The translations under genes were made by a program, and so were the position numbers. From NCBI GenBank assembly GCA_018669795.1, contig JABHSQ010000011.1, forward strand, positions 1 through 64,000: 64,000 bases of DNA. Reading direction: 5' to 3'. Positions 1 to 6,536 of the stretch are shown here, piece by piece; the first letter of the stretch is position 1, and every line of letters starts with the position of its first letter. The stretch is from Flavobacteriaceae bacterium. GTDB lineage: Bacteria; Bacteroidota; Bacteroidia; Flavobacteriales; Flavobacteriaceae. The notes under the pieces are model-generated. The model saw only the letters and a list, made by a program, of their open reading frames with translations, was not told the DNA's origin and made no database searches.

Positions 1-446
1 GGGTGGTTTTTTTATACAAGACATTCAAATCATATTTAGGGTTTTCCCCCTAACTAAAAAAGGGATTTTCCTAATAGGATAATATTAAGTTTACTCTTTC
101 GAGTGGAAATAAGGGGTTAGCAATAAGGCAACTCTCTGATAATAACGACTACAATTGAGTAGATCTATGCTGAGGTAACAAGGGATTGACCAACCCTGAT
201 TTGGGGGCATTAGTTGAGGGAGCAATAGAATTGAATAGATGATAGTGATTTAACTGGAGAGCTTAAGCAATAAGAGAGATCACCTCAATAGATAATTAAA
301 TGAATGCTTTAGCAAAGAAGGTGGGAAACTATTTACTCATACTCACTATACTTGAATTATGATATGTGCTAACTACTGATAATCAACATTTAGCATCTTT
401 TAATATAGGTGTAAAAAGGGGCTACATTAGGGGCTATTTAAATTAA
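1..446. other. Non-coding stretch at left edge, inside the integrated element
   Basis: No convincing reading frame on either strand. It lies downstream of the polymerase-like gene. I see a short direct repeat, ggggcta at 418-424 and 430-436, and GC-richer patches around 40-75 and 190-215 that stand out from the AT-rich background. It could hold an origin, a transfer site or another non-coding part of the element, but nothing in it is diagnostic. Confidence 0.4.
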
Positions 447-1868
447 TTATATTACTATTCTTTTATTACCTAATATATCTAAAGATTCTTTCCAATCTTC
501 TATATCTAAATTTGGTTGTAATGTAGTTATGTATTTAATATGCTTACTCATTTCTACTTCTAAAATATGTTGCCAATCTTCATTTGTTACTAAAGCATCA
601 TGTATGCTAAATAAAGGCATGTTTGGGTGACTTTGATTAATCTTCTTTGCTGTATAATCTAACAGTACATATGCCTCAATATATTGCAGCAGGTAAGAAA
701 ACTTTACATCGTGATCATCAAAGCATTTAAATATTCTGGAAACACTTGGGTATGTTTCTCTGAATATCTTAGCTTCTTTAATCGTTGTTCTAGGTTTGCT
801 GTAAAATATCTCCATTACAACTGCTTTAACAAGCTCTCTGGGTGTTTCAAAGATAACTTTTCTTTTAGGTTCCTGCTTGCTTCGGCTTCTATATTTCTTT
901 TTGCGGGTGTAATTAGAAACCATTCTAAAGGGTTTGCCATCCTCGTCAAAATCAATGTTAAGCTTATGTTGAAATTCAGTATAAAAATCCTTATTTAATA
1001 TTGACTGAGCAAAACTGATTAATTCTCGTCTATTCAACTCTAGATTAAAGAGTGATTCTATTACTGAGTCATTAAGTATATCGGTAGCTTTAATTTGCTC
1101 TAACAAGCCTTTGTCTCTCTTTAGAATTGCCTTTATGATAACACATAAGAAAAATGGCTGAGAGGTCTTTAAATCGACTCCTATTATGGGTTTCCCATCA
1201 TACTTAATATACTTTCTTAAAAGTTTAGAAGACCTTGTTAGGTTGCTGTGTAATCTGTTGTCTGATTTTGGTTTAATTGAATATTTCCATTCTTGATTGT
1301 GAAGTTCTTTTATTAGAGTTGCGCTTGTTAAGTACTTTCTTCGAGTAGCTTCACTATTTATAAAAGGTTTAATTTCATTATAAGCAGCCTTTGAATCAAT
1401 GGTGAGTTTGTCATCAAAAAACTTAACTAGGTGAGGTCTGGTTTTTATGCAACATTGATTTTTATCTTTTTGTAAAGATGTTAACCCTTGATGATCAAAT
1501 TTTTTCAATAACAATTTGTTGGTAATTTTATAAGTTTCCACTTCATCATTTAGATACTTATTCTTCATTATGAATATGCTGCAACGTTTTATGTCTGCAC
1601 CATAATTTGAAACTTTATCAATAAAATGTTCCTTTAGAAATTCAAAATACTGGTTGTACTTTCCATGGTGTTGTTTTAGTAATTGAGAATCTAATGAGAC
1701 ATAATCTGTTTGTTCTTCTTCTCTATATTGACTAGGAATAGAATTAAATAAACTTAAAAAGAAGACTAACACATCTAAATTGAGTTTGGGTTTGGTAACG
1801 CAGTTGTATTCTTTTGCAGCAGTTCTTAAATCATTTAAAAGCTGCTTTTGGATAATTACTGTTTTCAT
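447..1868 (-). CDS. Single-subunit polymerase-like protein (T7 RNAP / Pol A palm motifs)
   Basis: A 473-aa protein that I do not recognise by name, but it shows the three palm/fingers motifs of the single-subunit polymerase superfamily in the right order. Motif A is VDLKTSQP at 231-238 with Asp232. Motif B is R344-x3-K348-x3-M352-x3-Y356-S357, which matches the O-helix spacing RxxxKxxx(F/M)xxxYG; Met at the Phe position is as in T7 RNA polymerase. Motif C is SIHDALVT at 421-428 with Asp424. A stretch QYIEAYVLLD (395-404) sits between B and C, where Pol A has its Q-helix. There is no exonuclease domain, and the first 200 residues are unassigned. It lies 8 bp downstream of the HTH gene, so the two are probably co-transcribed. 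The most likely role is replication or priming of the element; template and substrate are unknown. Confidence 0.6.
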   Translation of the reverse strand: MKTVIIQKQLLNDLRTAAKEYNCVTKPKLNLDVLVFFLSLFNSIPSQYREEEQTDYVSLDSQLLKQHHGKYNQYFEFLKEHFIDKVSNYGADIKRCSIFIMKNKYLNDEVETYKITNKLLLKKFDHQGLTSLQKDKNQCCIKTRPHLVKFFDDKLTIDSKAAYNEIKPFINSEATRRKYLTSATLIKELHNQEWKYSIKPKSDNRLHSNLTRSSKLLRKYIKYDGKPIIGVDLKTSQPFFLCVIIKAILKRDKGLLEQIKATDILNDSVIESLFNLELNRRELISFAQSILNKDFYTEFQHKLNIDFDEDGKPFRMVSNYTRKKKYRSRSKQEPKRKVIFETPRELVKAVVMEIFYSKPRTTIKEAKIFRETYPSVSRIFKCFDDHDVKFSYLLQYIEAYVLLDYTAKKINQSHPNMPLFSIHDALVTNEDWQHILEVEMSKHIKYITTLQPNLDIEDWKESLDILGNKRIVI

Positions 1869-1876
1869 AGCAAAAA

Positions 1877-2155
1877 TTAATTTAATTTAATTAATGCTTC
1901 CTCAATCTCACTTCTTTTATAGTATACCCTCCCCACAAGTCCATACGGTATTAATTTACCTTTCTTTGTCCAATTGTAGACAGTGCTCAAATTAATTTTA
2001 AGGAGCTCTGAGACCTCTTTCCTAGTTAAATATTCTGTAGGTTCTTTTGGCTGATAAGAATCCTTTAAACCTTCTATTTGGGCTTTAATACCTTTTAAAA
2101 TTTCCTCTTGTAGTTCTTGAGGGGTAACTTGAATTAATTGAATCATTTTCTCCAT
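1877..2155 (-). CDS. Helix-turn-helix protein, excisionase/MerR-like family
   Basis: A 92-aa protein whose second half is a winged helix-turn-helix of the HTH_17/excisionase type: YLTRKEVSELLKI, then STVYNWTKKGKLIPYGLVG, ending in a strand and the RSEIEEAL helix. In Bacteroidota elements such proteins act as excisionases or as regulators of the following replication or mobilization genes. The N-terminal 40 residues look helical. It precedes the polymerase-like gene by 8 bp, suggesting one transcript. Whether it directs excision or regulates replication cannot be told from sequence. Confidence 0.75.
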   Translation of the reverse strand: MEKMIQLIQVTPQELQEEILKGIKAQIEGLKDSYQPKEPTEYLTRKEVSELLKINLSTVYNWTKKGKLIPYGLVGRVYYKRSEIEEALIKLN

Positions 2156-2247
2156 AATTATAGTTTATTATAGAGCAAAAATCAACAAATCACCTTACCC
2201 TTGTAAGTATGAAATCGTAGTATTTGGGTACGTTTTTAGGAGAAGAT

Positions 2248-3054
2248 TTAATATGGTTTATGTGAAGTTTTTAAGATTGAATATATACTAACTTTAGATT
2301 CAGTTGTGCAATTAATAAGTTGCTTTGTTTTTTCAATATCAATATTAAAATTATAGAATAAAAAATTTCTATATTCAGAATCACCTACACCTTCATAAAT
2401 AAGTTTATCTTCTTGCATCTTTCTATAAATAAAGCTATAATCTGCCATTAGAGATCCTTCTCTTACATGTTGTTCTGAAAATTCAGAAAACAAATTATAA
2501 GAATTTAAACTAGTAAATATTCTTGGATATGGATTTTCTTTATTCACTTCATCAACTTTCCCCTTTATTTCTAATTTTTCATCCCCTTTTTGAAAATCCG
2601 ATAAAGCTTTAAAAAAGTTTCTTGGTAAATTATTTTTTGCTAACGCTATAAATTCATTAAATATTTCTTCTGATGTGTTCAGATAATTAGATAAATTGTT
2701 ATTCTCAATGATTACTTGATTATATAATTTTGATAATTCAATAGTCGCTGGAATTATTGCATTATCATAACTAAGCTCTCTTACTATACGATTATTAACG
2801 GACTCAAAATAAACATCACATAAATTTATATGCCTAATATATTCTTCTCTTTCTTTAGCTTCTTCTATTTCTTCATCTGAAGGCTCGTAATGATCATCAG
2901 GTAATTCAAATTTAGTTATCTGTTTATCAATTTTATAAATATTACCTCCTTTATCAATATAGTCCCAAAAAAACTCAATTGTATCAAAGCCTGTTTTTTT
3001 AAAATCAGTAAATATTTTGATGTTTTCAAGATGTTCTAAAATATTAGAAACCAT
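2248..3054 (-). CDS. Hypothetical protein of the integrated element
   Basis: A 268-aa soluble, acidic protein with no signal peptide or membrane segment and no motif I can name. It is helical in character, with a charged stretch near residues 57-72 (PSDEEIEEAKEREEY). The C-terminal part (about 200-245: EHVREG-like turn, then ADYSFIYRKMQEDKLIYEG) reminds me weakly of the C-terminal helical region of proteins carried by other Bacteroidota elements, but I cannot assign it. It begins 15 bp after the integrase stop codon and is presumably translated from the integrase message. Accessory roles such as immunity, defence or regulation are possible; none is shown. Confidence 0.6.
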   Translation of the reverse strand: MVSNILEHLENIKIFTDFKKTGFDTIEFFWDYIDKGGNIYKIDKQITKFELPDDHYEPSDEEIEEAKEREEYIRHINLCDVYFESVNNRIVRELSYDNAIIPATIELSKLYNQVIIENNNLSNYLNTSEEIFNEFIALAKNNLPRNFFKALSDFQKGDEKLEIKGKVDEVNKENPYPRIFTSLNSYNLFSEFSEQHVREGSLMADYSFIYRKMQEDKLIYEGVGDSEYRNFLFYNFNIDIEKTKQLINCTTESKVSIYSILKTSHKPY

Positions 3055-3069
3055 AAGATAATTAGTTAG

Positions 3070-4398
3070 TTAATTGTTTGATACATTTTTGATAACGTGC
3101 AATCTTGGCTCTTTATTTGTTTTTAAATTTTCCTTAGCCCATATTCTAGCCAATTCTAAACTATAATCAATAGGTTTTTTACCAATGTAATCCAAAAACA
3201 TTTTTTCTGTACTATGAGCAGTAATATTCATTAACAAAGGAGTCGGATATTTAGGATTTCCGTAAAAATTTGTTGAAAAAGAACGTCTGCAAATATGTGA
3301 TGAAACTAATTTATACTTTTCAAACATTCCATTTTCGTTTCGTTTCGTTTCTTTATTAAAACAATTGCCCTCCACAACAGAATCAATTTTAGCAATTTCA
3401 CATAATTGTTTAAGGTAGCGATTGAACAATGCCTTATTGCTATCTATATTTTCTACATATACAGGGGGAAACATCCCATTTCTCTTGTCAAGTATTACTT
3501 TCACCTCATAATGTATAGGAATTTGTACAATTTTTCCAGTTTTAACTTGCTCTAATACAATGAAATTAAAATCCTGTATAGTTTGAATAAATTCATTAGT
3601 CATTCTTAATAAATCTGACACCCTTTGCCCTGTGTAAAATCCAATGATTAACCAATCTCTGGCAATTTCATGATTTTCATTAGTGAAATTTGCATTCTTT
3701 ATCTTACCTAATTCATCAAGTGATAAAAAAACCTTAGGAGCTTTAACCGTATATCCCTTAAAATGCCTTAATTGGTCATTTAGTTTTTGTCCGTTTTTTT
3801 GAGCATCTAAGCAAATGCTTTTAACAAACTTTAGATAACGCCCAATTGTATTATCTCCAAGTTTATCTTCAATTGAAAGGTATTTGATTAATTCATTTCT
3901 AAACTTCAAATCTACATCAGTTAGTAAAATTTTCGTTTTTTTAAAATTCTCAAATGAAATGAGTTTGTTAACTATAGTTCGGTATTTTCTTTTTGTTGAA
4001 ACCGAAACTCCTTTAGTTCCCTTTTCTGAAACCCTATATTGTATATTTTCAATAAAATACTCACCATATTCAATTAAGTAATTCAAGTTTGTCACTTCAC
4101 TCCTATCAAAATGTTGGTTAATAGTTTTAATCAACCAATCACCATTAATATCAATTCCTTTACTGTTTGATTCATTTAGCTCAGAAAGCACAAAAGATTC
4201 AAGGTTTCTTAATTTGATTGCCAAGCTCTTATTTAATTCGTCATTTTGTTTTGGGAGACCTGTAGTTCTACTCCAATTCCTATAATCAATACTTAAACCT
4301 GTTTTACGTTTGAATAATTTATTTCTGCCTAATGAAAGTCTTAAATAAATAGGAGCATTATTGGTTTCGCTTTGTAGTAAGTATTTAATAGTTGCCAT
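3070..4398 (-). CDS. int: Tyrosine site-specific recombinase (integrase)
   Basis: A 442-aa phage-type integrase of the Bacteroidota family. An N-terminal arm-binding region (about 1-90) is followed by a SAM-like core-binding domain (about 100-210) and the catalytic domain. The catalytic residues are all visible: Arg259 in TGQRVSDLL, Lys286 in VKTGK, His368-x2-Arg371 in SSHICRRSF, His395 in TAHST and nucleophile Tyr404 in FLDYIG. The length is typical and the gene looks intact. It reads away from the attachment-like site at 4601, about 200 bp upstream of its start, and is followed closely by the unknown 268-aa gene. It should catalyse integration and excision of the element. Confidence 0.93.
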   Translation of the reverse strand: MATIKYLLQSETNNAPIYLRLSLGRNKLFKRKTGLSIDYRNWSRTTGLPKQNDELNKSLAIKLRNLESFVLSELNESNSKGIDINGDWLIKTINQHFDRSEVTNLNYLIEYGEYFIENIQYRVSEKGTKGVSVSTKRKYRTIVNKLISFENFKKTKILLTDVDLKFRNELIKYLSIEDKLGDNTIGRYLKFVKSICLDAQKNGQKLNDQLRHFKGYTVKAPKVFLSLDELGKIKNANFTNENHEIARDWLIIGFYTGQRVSDLLRMTNEFIQTIQDFNFIVLEQVKTGKIVQIPIHYEVKVILDKRNGMFPPVYVENIDSNKALFNRYLKQLCEIAKIDSVVEGNCFNKETKRNENGMFEKYKLVSSHICRRSFSTNFYGNPKYPTPLLMNITAHSTEKMFLDYIGKKPIDYSLELARIWAKENLKTNKEPRLHVIKNVSNN

Positions 4399-4441
4399 GG
4401 TATAAATGTTAAGTATTCAAATTTAATAAAAAAAATAAACT

Positions 4442-4503
4442 TAGTCAACATCTAGTCAACATTTAAGCAACTCCTTTAAATCACATACAATCTAGTTAAA
4501 CAT
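4442..4503. repeat. Direct repeats between integrase and attachment-like site
   Basis: TAGTCAACAT occurs at 4442-4451 and again at 4453-4462 (11-bp period), and a diverged copy, TAGTTAAACAT, lies at 4493-4503. They lie upstream of the integrase start and about 100-160 bp from the attachment-like core. Their size, number and position fit arm-type integrase sites or excisionase sites, and the first two also overlap the likely integrase promoter region. Binding is an inference. Confidence 0.5.
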
Positions 4504-4600
4504 CAATAGAATCATACAACTACTTGTGCCAATTGTCTTTAACTATATAAAGTGCCATTCTAATTAGGCTTTTTAATATTGATAGATTGCATTGTTTTAG

Positions 4601-4614
4601 TCTCCCCGGCTCCA
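4601..4614. other. Attachment-site-like core resembling a tmRNA/tRNA 3' end (copy 1)
   Basis: The sequence tctccccggctcca reads as the last T-stem bases, a seven-base acceptor strand (CGGCTCC) and discriminator A of a tmRNA or tRNA 3' end. The upstream bases do not fold into a T arm, so this is only the tail of such a gene, as expected at the far side of an element integrated into a tmRNA/tRNA 3' end. The same 14 bases recur at 4761-4774. Confidence 0.55.
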
Positions 4615-4760
4615 CTTTGAAGCACAGCAAAGCTGTGGACAACATCATAAAAAGACCTGCAAATTTATTTGTAAGGGCTTTGTTGGTTTTGGACGCTTGG
4701 ACTGAAAGGACAGTTTGCTGTATTTCCTAAAAGGGAGTTAAGAGAAAAACCGAAGGTTAA
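4615..4760. other. 146-bp segment between two attachment-like cores
   Basis: No reading frame of note. It contains a short inverted repeat, cacagcaaagctgtg, at about 4623-4637, and is less AT-rich than the surrounding intergenic DNA. Being bounded by the two 14-bp core copies, it could be a small remnant of an earlier integration at the same site. The remainder of the gap between the integrase and the next gene (4775-4925) is AT-rich and shows nothing I can name. Confidence 0.4.
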
Positions 4761-4774
4761 TCTCCCCGGCTCCA
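4761..4774. other. Attachment-site-like core (copy 2)
   Basis: An identical second copy of tctccccggctcca, 160 bp from the first. The flanks differ (ctttga after copy 1, aggcat after copy 2), so identity is limited to the core. One copy is probably the current right junction; the other may mark an older junction or an alternative crossover point. Confidence 0.5.
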
Positions 4775-4925
4775 AGGCATTGTTCCCAAAAATAAATTTT
4801 AATTTTGGGAACAATTTTAGTTATAAATATCTGCAATTTTTACCCATAGAGGTGAGGCAATAAAATTATTATTATTTACCTTCAATTTTTATTAATTTCA
4901 AAAAATAAATAAACATTATCCGATT

Positions 4926-6536
4926 ATGAATATAAAAAAACTGTTGATTTTATTTGTCATAATAATGAATATAGATGGCTTATACTCACAAGCATTGTCT
5001 GATTCAATAAAAGCTGTTTGGATGAATGTTAATAATTCAGATTCTCTACGATTTGAAGCAATTGAAAATTATTATTTTGGAAATACCTATGCCAAGCCAG
5101 ATTCTGTTATCCCAGTCACTAAATATCATTATCAACTAGCCAAAGAAAAAGGTTCTGTTAAACAGATGGCCTCTGCCCTTAATGAAAGATCCTATGCCTA
5201 CTATATAAAGGGGGAATTAAATAGTTCTACAGAAATACTACAACAATCAATTAGTTTGTTTGAAATAATCAACGAACCAAAAAATATTGCGGTCATACAA
5301 TCAAATCTTGGGAGTATATATATTGAACAAAAACAATACTTAAAGGCATTTAATTCTTTTAATGCCTCTTTAAAAATAGTGAGAGATCTAAAATTAAAAA
5401 CATCTGAGGCTCGAATACTAGTTGAAATTGGAAAAATATACAGCCGTCTGGACGAGTTGGATTTAGCCATGGAGTATTTAGAAGAGTCACTTACTATTCG
5501 TGTGGCCAAAAAAATTAATAAAGACAATCAAATTGGAACTATATTTTTAAAAAAAGCAGAAATATATTTTAAAAAAAAACAATACAATCAGGCCATTGAG
5601 TATTCAAAGAAAGCAATCAAAAAATTTAAAAATACAAATAATAAGTTTGATTTATCTGAGTGTTATATGCTGCTAGCCAAATCAAATAACAAATTGCTAA
5701 AAAAAGAGCAGGCACTAGATTATACAAACACTTCCTTGGCGATTAATTATGAAATAGATAATAATTCAAAAATTATTGAGGCGCTAATATTAAAATCGTA
5801 TTTACTACTAGATTCAAAACCTATAGTTGCAAAAAATCAGGCTGAAGAGATCCTAGGGCTCATTAATTTAGAGACCAGCAATGAAATAAAGGCTGACTTA
5901 TACAAACTATTATATCTGTGTTATAAAAGCAATAATCAATCAGGCAAAGCATTATTTATGATTGAAAAGCACACTGTTTATAAAGACAGTTTTCAATTAG
6001 AAAAAAATAAAATTCTAATTGTAAAAGAAACTATTAAGAGTGAATATGAAAATAAATTACAAGAAAGCAAGGCCATTAATGAAAAAGAGAGTGCAATTGT
6101 TAGGCTTACCTATACCTATAGGATTTACTTTGTACTATCACTAACCATAATGCTTGTCATTCTATTTGTATACGTGCTAAGGGTGAAAAACCTTAAAACC
6201 AGAAAAGAGCTGGACTCCTTGTTATTAGAAATTAACACGCTAAAAAGAAAAGAAAAATTAAACCTATTGGTAGATTCTAGTAATTTTGAACTAAACCAAG
6301 TGAGAATTCAGAAAAGTATCAACAGGAAACTCAACAAAACAGATTGGGGTGTATTAAACGTTCTTTTAGATAATCCAGAAGTAAGCAACAAAGAAATATC
6401 TGAAAAAGTATTCTTAAGCATTGACGGTATTGGTTCTTCACTAAGAAGAATGTATGTGTTTTTTGCAATCAAAGAGACCAAATACAAAAAAGTATTACTT
6501 ATTAAAAGAGCAATTGAAATTTCAAAGGATGCTTAA
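4926..6536 (+). CDS. TPR-repeat membrane regulator with LuxR-type C-terminal HTH
   Basis: A 536-aa protein with the architecture common in Bacteroidota: an N-terminal signal (residues 1-22), tetratricopeptide repeats from about 80 to 360 (for example AVIQSNLGSIYIEQKQYLKA and GTIFLKKAEIYFKKKQYNQA), one membrane helix at about 400-418, a charged coiled coil, and a C-terminal helix-turn-helix (about 470-525) with the NKEISEKVF-x2-SIDGIGSSLRRMY pattern of LuxR-like domains. The TPR part should face the periplasm and the HTH the cytoplasm, so it could pass an envelope signal directly to DNA. The next gene encodes a T9SS-exported protein and the gap carries two matching palindromes, which suggests, without proof, local control. 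Confidence 0.85.
   Translation: MNIKKLLILFVIIMNIDGLYSQALSDSIKAVWMNVNNSDSLRFEAIENYYFGNTYAKPDSVIPVTKYHYQLAKEKGSVKQMASALNERSYAYYIKGELNSSTEILQQSISLFEIINEPKNIAVIQSNLGSIYIEQKQYLKAFNSFNASLKIVRDLKLKTSEARILVEIGKIYSRLDELDLAMEYLEESLTIRVAKKINKDNQIGTIFLKKAEIYFKKKQYNQAIEYSKKAIKKFKNTNNKFDLSECYMLLAKSNNKLLKKEQALDYTNTSLAINYEIDNNSKIIEALILKSYLLLDSKPIVAKNQAEEILGLINLETSNEIKADLYKLLYLCYKSNNQSGKALFMIEKHTVYKDSFQLEKNKILIVKETIKSEYENKLQESKAINEKESAIVRLTYTYRIYFVLSLTIMLVILFVYVLRVKNLKTRKELDSLLLEINTLKRKEKLNLLVDSSNFELNQVRIQKSINRKLNKTDWGVLNVLLDNPEVSNKEISEKVFLSIDGIGSSLRRMYVFFAIKETKYKKVLLIKRAIEISKDA

Follow-up and report, generated by a model that had tools for sequence, protein, structure and literature searches.

What does a small polymerase-like protein, encoded at the very edge of a contig, do for the integrated DNA that carries it? 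The contig comes from a Flavobacteriaceae bacterium (GenBank assembly GCA_018669795.1, contig JABHSQ010000011.1), and by the window we mean the whole stretch of DNA analyzed, its first 64,000 nucleotides. An initial annotation of the window had seen polymerase motifs in the protein, and an excisionase-like gene and an integrase gene nearby.

A compact polymerase gene with conserved motifs

The open reading frame exists as annotated, and D232 in VDLKTSQP, the series R344-x3-K348-x3-M352-x3-Y356-S357, and D424 in SIHDALVT all lie where the initial annotation had put them. The features of the gene are as follows (counts are members of a family alignment that keep the residue).

447..1868, minus strand: polymerase ORF, 473 aa with an ATG start, predicted minimal family A-type and TV-Pol-like; last gene of the cassette
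1494..1868, minus strand: N-terminal domain (residues 1-125), alpha/beta, with a winged-helix-like order of elements predicted by AlphaFold2
1236..1256, minus strand: hairpin motif R205-L-H-S-N-L-T211 (R205 68/68, T211 63/68)
1155..1175, minus strand: motif A, D232-L-K-T-S-Q-P238 (D232 67/68, S236 66/68, Q237 64/68)
798..839, minus strand: motif B, O-helix-like R344..K348..M352..Y356-S357 (helix 343-356 in the model; K348 67/67, R344 54/67)
585..608, minus strand: motif C, S421-I-H-D424-A-L-V-T428 (strands 420-422 and 425-429 in the model; D424 67/67, H423 65/67)

The 68 compared members are the 75 distinct proteins found minus two second polymerase genes and any protein more than 90% identical to another; n drops to 67 at columns where one row has a gap, and two fragments (254 aa and 135 aa) stand outside the 75-protein set. 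Conservation of the Asp and Lys residues, on which the initial annotation had staked its reading, is near-complete, the single exception at D232 being Glu. Y296 (67/67) and E398 (67/68, with one Asp) are equally constant, and R344 is the weaker position, with Lys in nine members. Because key residues of the named motifs are near-invariant across 68 homologues, the motifs are not chance. R205 would, by analogy with TV-Pol (see below) and PolA, be the template-contacting Arg, and D232 is placed near the end of a strand (226-233) in the AlphaFold2 model.

Standard searches say little about this protein. Pfam, PHROGs, and NCBIfam gave no match to it at E<=1, PDB sequences gave none at E<=10, and no nuclease domain was recognized in it.

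The predicted fold is that of family A DNA polymerases

The first search returned 27 proteins, reduced to 25 by dropping L016 (the same as L015) and L026 (by eye a CinA-type chance match); alignment A1 holds 24 sequences, the long form L014 being left out. AlphaFold2, run on 24 sequences, modeled the window polymerase with a pLDDT of 85.0 and a pTM of 0.83. When this model was compared with the PDB by Foldseek, the best 50 matches were all family A DNA polymerases, and the 41 matches at E<=0.001 included the apicoplast, Taq, Klenow, Bst, Mycobacterium, Aquifex, and T7 DNA polymerases. Over whole chains the TM-scores reached no more than 0.25-0.39 and the rmsd was high, indicating that the model shares just a core with the family A enzymes. 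In the viral structure library BFVD, the best match was a marine-phage protein of 403 aa named “Putative DNA polymerase I” (E 2.7e-18, TMt 0.71); a replication protein of Zamilon virus stood at rank 23, the first entry named as an RNA polymerase at rank 50, and several matches were nameless.

Profile comparison by hhalign gave E-values of 0.087 for PolA and 0.0092 for T7-type RNA polymerases with 24 sequences, and of 0.021 and 0.0039, respectively, with 68; none of these is significant, and the T7-type value is the better one with either alignment. The sequence profiles are too distant to decide between PolA and T7-type RNA polymerases. On the modeled fold, the window polymerase is predicted to belong to the family A DNA polymerase superfamily, with its palm and fingers core. 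The right-hand palm expected by the initial annotation is therefore found in the model, and fold and 68-member alignment agree on a compact family A-type polymerase with conserved catalytic residues.

The N-terminal stretches of 54 of the 68 members make up alignment A6, and 52 are in A7. Modeled alone (AlphaFold2, 52 sequences), residues 1-125 reached a pLDDT of 90.5, with strands predicted at 2-7, 56-60, 83-87, 96-101, and 110-115. Foldseek matches to this domain were weak: The best had an E of 0.33, none reached E<=0.001, and many carried the title of a winged-helix regulator. Because these matches are weak, the name is suggestive only: the model suggests a winged helix.

A diverse family on chromosomes, a plasmid, and viral contigs

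Of 395 genomes sampled from the order of the window, 26 contain matches to the polymerase; of 395 sampled from the phylum, 17 do by profile search, and the two samples share some genomes. The nearest named relative lies on a contig of a Lutibacter MAG (L031), with 99% identity over residues 388-473. Plasmids yielded a single homologue in 72,556 records, on a Hymenobacter plasmid. Viral contigs yielded two loci with the window protein as query and 32 with an alignment of six members; the three closest proteins, used as queries against viral contigs, gave 107 stretches and no relative. A relative of the window polymerase has matches in five phage records (595-735 kb), and tblastn of the window protein and of the L111 protein against phages gave no match. 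The family is diverse and is found on chromosomes, on one plasmid, and on viral contigs.

It is also almost unseen by Pfam, NCBIfam, and PHROGs. A Pfam scan of 24 members returned 12 single chance-like matches, one of them to DNA_pol_A and sub-threshold (E 0.066), and four of the 24 weakly matched phrog_4756, a family of unknown function (best E 3.4e-4). In 13 phage records with the gene, the Pfam model PF00476 fails to detect the family. One homologue of 686 aa (L127:9523-11583) has a C-terminal extension that resembles, by eye, a GIY-YIG endonuclease.

In two phage records, of 187 kb and 595 kb (L034:10010-12459 and L218:7992-10438), the mini-polymerase gene overlaps a second polymerase gene by 4 nt. 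The second gene encodes a recognizable family A polymerase (PF00476, E 4.0e-23 and 1.0e-20), as if one protein primed and the other extended. A Toprim_2 domain, possibly of a primase, is encoded elsewhere in three of the 13 phage records with the gene, including the 595-kb one; most of the other ten may be fragments. The Hymenobacter plasmid carries a separate annotated replication initiation protein. For these reasons the polymerase cannot in every case be the only primase or initiator: A role as sole primase of large phages was not upheld, and one as sole initiator of the Hymenobacter plasmid was rejected.

A four-gene cassette with an integrase

The polymerase gene closes a short run of genes, all on the minus strand.

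3070..4398, minus strand: tyrosine integrase, 442 aa (Phage_int_SAM_5 8.9e-10, Phage_integrase 2.1e-06, phrog_1 7.5e-22)
2248..3054, minus strand: fast-evolving ORF, 268 aa, between integrase and HTH gene, in the position of iolg/icg of PICMI satellites
1877..2155, minus strand: AlpA/excisionase-like HTH protein, 92 aa (PF12728 HTH_17, E 2.1e-13, above cut-off)

The order is integrase, variable ORF, AlpA-like HTH, polymerase, and the four genes span 3.95 kb. Gaps from polymerase to integrase are 8, 92, and 15 nt, so the genes look like one unit. The HTH protein also matches phrog_66 (excisionase and transcriptional regulator, 5.4e-10). The initial annotation had paired the polymerase gene with an HTH gene and an integrase; the integrase gene is not adjacent, since the 268-aa ORF and the HTH gene intervene. 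No helicase, SSB, or relaxase family was recognized by Pfam among the four cassette genes.

At E<=1 the 268-aa ORF matches nothing in Pfam, and PADLOC did not recognize it either. We found one relative of it (L165:7786-8466) and none in 38 polymerase neighborhoods; by sequence comparison, the ORF between integrase and HTH gene is one that changes very fast. The ORFs of two other loci (L114:8546-9643 and L115:11051-11755) match one another (E about 1e-11). The integrase gene overlaps the next co-directional ORF, or is no more than 25 nt away from it, at 27 of 37 integrase loci; at two of the 27, that ORF is the HTH gene.

The neighborhoods of homologues (39, reduced to 38 because L112 has no ORF match) vary. 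The idea that homologues always neighbor an integrase fails: A gene of the integrase cluster lies near the polymerase gene in 25 of 38 loci and is absent in 13. The HTH cluster is present in 13 of 38, and unclustered HTH-like genes are visible by eye in further neighborhoods. The integrase gene is upstream on the same strand at 17 polymerase loci. Six others (L133:11043-13218, L095-L097, L131, and L132) have a different order, with a gene pair divergent from the polymerase gene and a convergent integrase gene; the L133 pair consists of AAA_24 and DUF3871 genes, and five of the six adjoin tRNA-Met or tRNA-Val. These six look like a second element type.

The integrase side abuts a copy of the tmRNA 3' end

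Beyond the integrase gene and at the contig edge, the following features bear on the ends of the element.

4601..4614, plus strand: att core TCTCCCCGGCTCCA on the integrase side, identical to the tmRNA 3' end
4761..4774, plus strand: second att core copy, 160 bp further out
1..446, no strand: region past the end of the polymerase gene in which no gene was called; the other element end is here or beyond the contig edge

The last 13 nt of the att core occur three times in the genome, and one occurrence forms the end of the intact tmRNA on contig C11. Genome G742, from the same genus, has an intact tmRNA that continues directly into sequence of window 4601-4774 (98% of 174 nt). On its integrase side, the element thus borders on an att-like tmRNA 3' end. 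The copies of this end are separated by a 160-bp unit, and in a same-genus genome (L229:1190-1402) the start of this unit recurs after it, up to the contig end. Rfam gave nothing at E<=1 on window 1-5200.

Base 1 of the window is base 1 of contig C19, and therefore the element is truncated on its far side by the assembly. Window 1..446 showed neither direct nor inverted repeats of at least 11 nt. The Lutibacter contig L031 continues the sequence past the contig edge; its 10.3 kb showed no att core, and the first 2 kb of its far side, sought in the genome of the window, gave short repeats only. By eye, L031:1231-8215 holds a nitrous-oxide-reductase-like cluster beyond the polymerase gene. A dispersed repeat with a terminator-like hairpin occupies window 1-36, with 25 genome matches (on C2, C10, C12, C13, and others; also L031:762-950); this repeat at the contig edge may have caused the assembly break. 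We rejected an integron-like repeat beside base 1, since its aligned copies resemble, by eye, a terminator together with 3' ends of genes from a repetitive family.

A screen for exact direct repeats of at least 13 nt at 25 loci with an integrase near the polymerase (23 of the neighborhoods above, with L165 and L184 added) found nothing in the window and mostly 13-16 nt elsewhere, only L128 having one of 22 nt. At seven of the 23 polymerase loci examined, the integrase gene lies 147-321 bp from the nearest tRNA; the other 16, and all 20 integrase-relative loci described below, have neither a tRNA nor a tmRNA at a distance of up to 1.5 kb from that gene. One tRNA-adjacent locus holds a 7,025-bp stretch bounded by a 22-bp repeat of the tRNA-Val 3' end, with one mismatch, and no tRNA-end repeat was found at the other six.

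Integrase relatives carry other replication proteins in the same slot

If the polymerase is a replication gene, then relatives of the integrase should keep the cassette with other replication genes instead. Integrase matches at E<=1e-40 were found in 30 of 148 related genomes (34 places listed), and the slot set consists of the next 20 loci after the two best, which are the window itself and G109, also with the polymerase. At 19 of the 20 loci the order is integrase, an optional ORF, HTH, and a protein X; an ORF running in the same direction is present at 16 of these 19, and the twentieth locus is truncated. X belongs to the polymerase family at two of the 19 (L165 and L184). For the other 17, X was taken as the first sizeable ORF past the HTH gene, which meant skipping ORFs of 60-133 aa at seven loci.

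Ten of these 17 proteins were scanned with Pfam. Four have families of primases or of primase type (DUF3987 in two, DUF5906 in one, and DnaG zinc ribbon, DNAG_N, and Toprim in one) and three belong to other AAA or helicase families (AAA_25 in two, DEAD helicase in one); one, at L170, has HTH_36, and two have no family. Pfam assigns no function to DUF3987 or DUF5906, and PMC10803314 employs the two as primase markers for PICMI satellites. We read the pattern as an exchange of unrelated replication proteins in one slot, the kind of argument that Iyer et al. used for TV-Pols. Cassette and slot sharing together argue for what the initial annotation had proposed, a likely self-encoded replication or priming module of an integrated element.

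Comparison with known systems

The initial annotation could match the protein to no described family; a description that nearly fits exists. TV-Pols are transposon-virus polymerases, predicted to be primase-polymerases (Iyer, Abhiman and Aravind 2008, PMC2579912). Like the window family, they are minimal family A cores of 400-600 aa without a nuclease domain, they share the hairpin Arg, the two palm Asp, and the RxxxK fingers, and they occur on mobile elements with integrase-type neighbors, with Flavobacteriales among the organisms listed. The differences are in the N-terminal domain, which is predicted to be alpha/beta in the window and is all-helical in the TV-Pol subset linked to recombinase genes, and in the D5 helicase, which was not recognized in the window cassette. 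For the fingers Asp of TV-Pols, we guessed column 294, which is Asp in 15 of 68 members; the exact column of the paper may differ. The family profile had no match at E<=1 in Microcystis phage Ma-LMM01, the one record searched, which is said to hold a TV-Pol. By analogy, the window polymerase would function in the manner of a TV-Pol, and its family probably represents a branch of the TV-Pols. Among the open-access titles and abstract beginnings in the matches listed, only the TV-Pol paper joins a family A polymerase with small Bacteroidota integrative elements.

A biochemical precedent is CCPol-MP, an A-family polymerase that, as a part of PMC7581432 describes, primes DNA de novo on a mobile element together with the SSB-like MP; CCPol alone extends primers and primes only with MP. 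CCPol-MP and the PolA-SSB primases, found on SCC and other Bacillota islands (PMC7581432 and PMC10061031, in part), resemble the window in having a family A enzyme in the replication operon of an island with recombinase genes. They differ in that no OB-fold partner or helicase was recognized in the window cassette, whose 268-aa ORF and HTH protein have no SSB family, and in that CCPol is close to housekeeping PolA in sequence, whereas the window family is not.

In gene order, the window cassette resembles the PICMI satellites of Vibrionaceae, which according to portions of PMC10803314 have an integrase gene, a small variable gene touching it, an AlpA-type HTH gene (PF12728), and a replication gene. 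Small size is also shared, and related slots hold DUF3987 and DUF5906, the primase families that define PICMI. The same portions define a PICMI by an integrase, AlpA (PF12728/PF05930), a DUF3987/DUF5906 primase, and a fis site; the window has the integrase and PF12728, a polymerase and not a DUF primase, a tmRNA-end site and not fis, and another host group. PICMI excision requires iolg and AlpA, and copy number falls without the primase (PMC10803314, same portions).

NBU1-type mobilizable elements of Bacteroides share a tyrosine integrase with an excision factor, a Bacteroidota host, and insertion at tRNA 3' ends, as part of PMC5704250 has it, and differ in that no relaxase family was recognized among the four window genes. 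In Riemerella, a 10-kb island whose integrase is IntN1-like can excise with that integrase alone, according to PMC6764341.

A proposed working of the element

We consider it reasonably probable that the minimal family A-type polymerase is the replication module, probably a priming one, of a small satellite-like integrative element. That the window polymerase has a primase function is, by slot and analogy, the likelier case. The HTH protein and the integrase, perhaps with the ORF, would excise the element, and the N-terminal domain would perhaps guide the polymerase to it. The polymerase would then lay down a primer where the DNA is opened and extend it, so starting DNA synthesis, after which host or helper-phage enzymes would take over. 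We infer enzyme activity, de novo priming, a product that is DNA and not RNA, origin binding, excision, helper dependence, and phage induction.

Pfam shows no helicase or SSB family in the cassette, and therefore priming by the polymerase alone would differ from CCPol, which requires MP. The more specific picture is tentative, and we think it rather doubtful as a whole: a one-protein initiator-primase-polymerase, composed of a winged-helix-like domain and a family A core, that would start the replication of satellite-like four-gene Bacteroidota elements without their own helicase, SSB, or DnaG and be exchanged in its slot with DnaG, DUF3987/DUF5906, and AAA-type proteins. In this picture, some large phages would have the same enzyme, its gene overlapping that of a second family A polymerase.

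Alternative readings

The alternative that survives best, although we regard it as unlikely, is a primer-dependent DNA polymerase that elongates primers supplied by host enzymes or by transcription and has no priming function of its own. CCPol without MP behaves in this way (PMC7581432, in part), the cassette shows no SSB family, and the predicted fold is nearest to primer-dependent family A enzymes. This reading has to contend with the slot, which is common to primases and primase-type proteins, and with the host PolA, which is already present, so that the element would gain little from a plain extender.

A single-subunit RNA polymerase, transcribing the element or making RNA primers, seems quite improbable. 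The initial annotation had placed the protein closer to such enzymes, and there is a resemblance: motif A (D-x3-S) and motif C (IHDS) recall the T7-type consensus DGSCSG and IHDSFGT, and hhalign aligns motif C better to T7-type RNA polymerases than to PolA, neither match being significant. The placement is not supported by the structural comparison, in which the best 50 PDB matches contain no RNA polymerase and show no specific likeness to T7 RNA polymerase beyond the shared palm, and the first viral-library entry named as an RNA polymerase is at rank 50, some matches there being nameless. Nor is Met352 conserved: The position is Phe in 27, Tyr in 17, Leu in 13, and Met in eight of the 68 members, and position 357, Ser in the window, is Gly in 23 and Ser in 20. 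As both are variants within the family, they are no sign of an RNA polymerase. The T7-type reading was thus rejected as the best explanation and kept as a rival.

We give still less credence to an origin-binding initiator in which the N-terminal domain works and the polymerase core is structural. All 68 members keep at least 80 residues aligned to 1-125, phage forms of about 400 aa included, and the X protein of L170 shows an HTH_36 domain only; however, a core without catalytic function would have no need of Lys348 and the metal-binding Asp pair, and nearly all 68 members retain them. Small islands often carry defense genes, and the polymerase gene sits at the cassette end, yet an anti-phage defense polymerase carried as cargo is the most far-fetched reading, as PADLOC gave no match for the polymerase, the 268-aa ORF, or eight proteins of related loci, the position equals that of replication genes, and viral contigs carry the polymerase themselves.

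Implications

Primer-dependent polymerases do not start chains, and the family offers compact (about 400-aa) test objects for chain starting by the family A fold. To the knowledge of the authors of a 2020 eLife paper, as stated in a part of it (PMC7581432), no other proposed TV-Pol had been biochemically characterized. The slot comparison points to small integrative elements with an exchangeable replication gene, in the order of the window and beyond.
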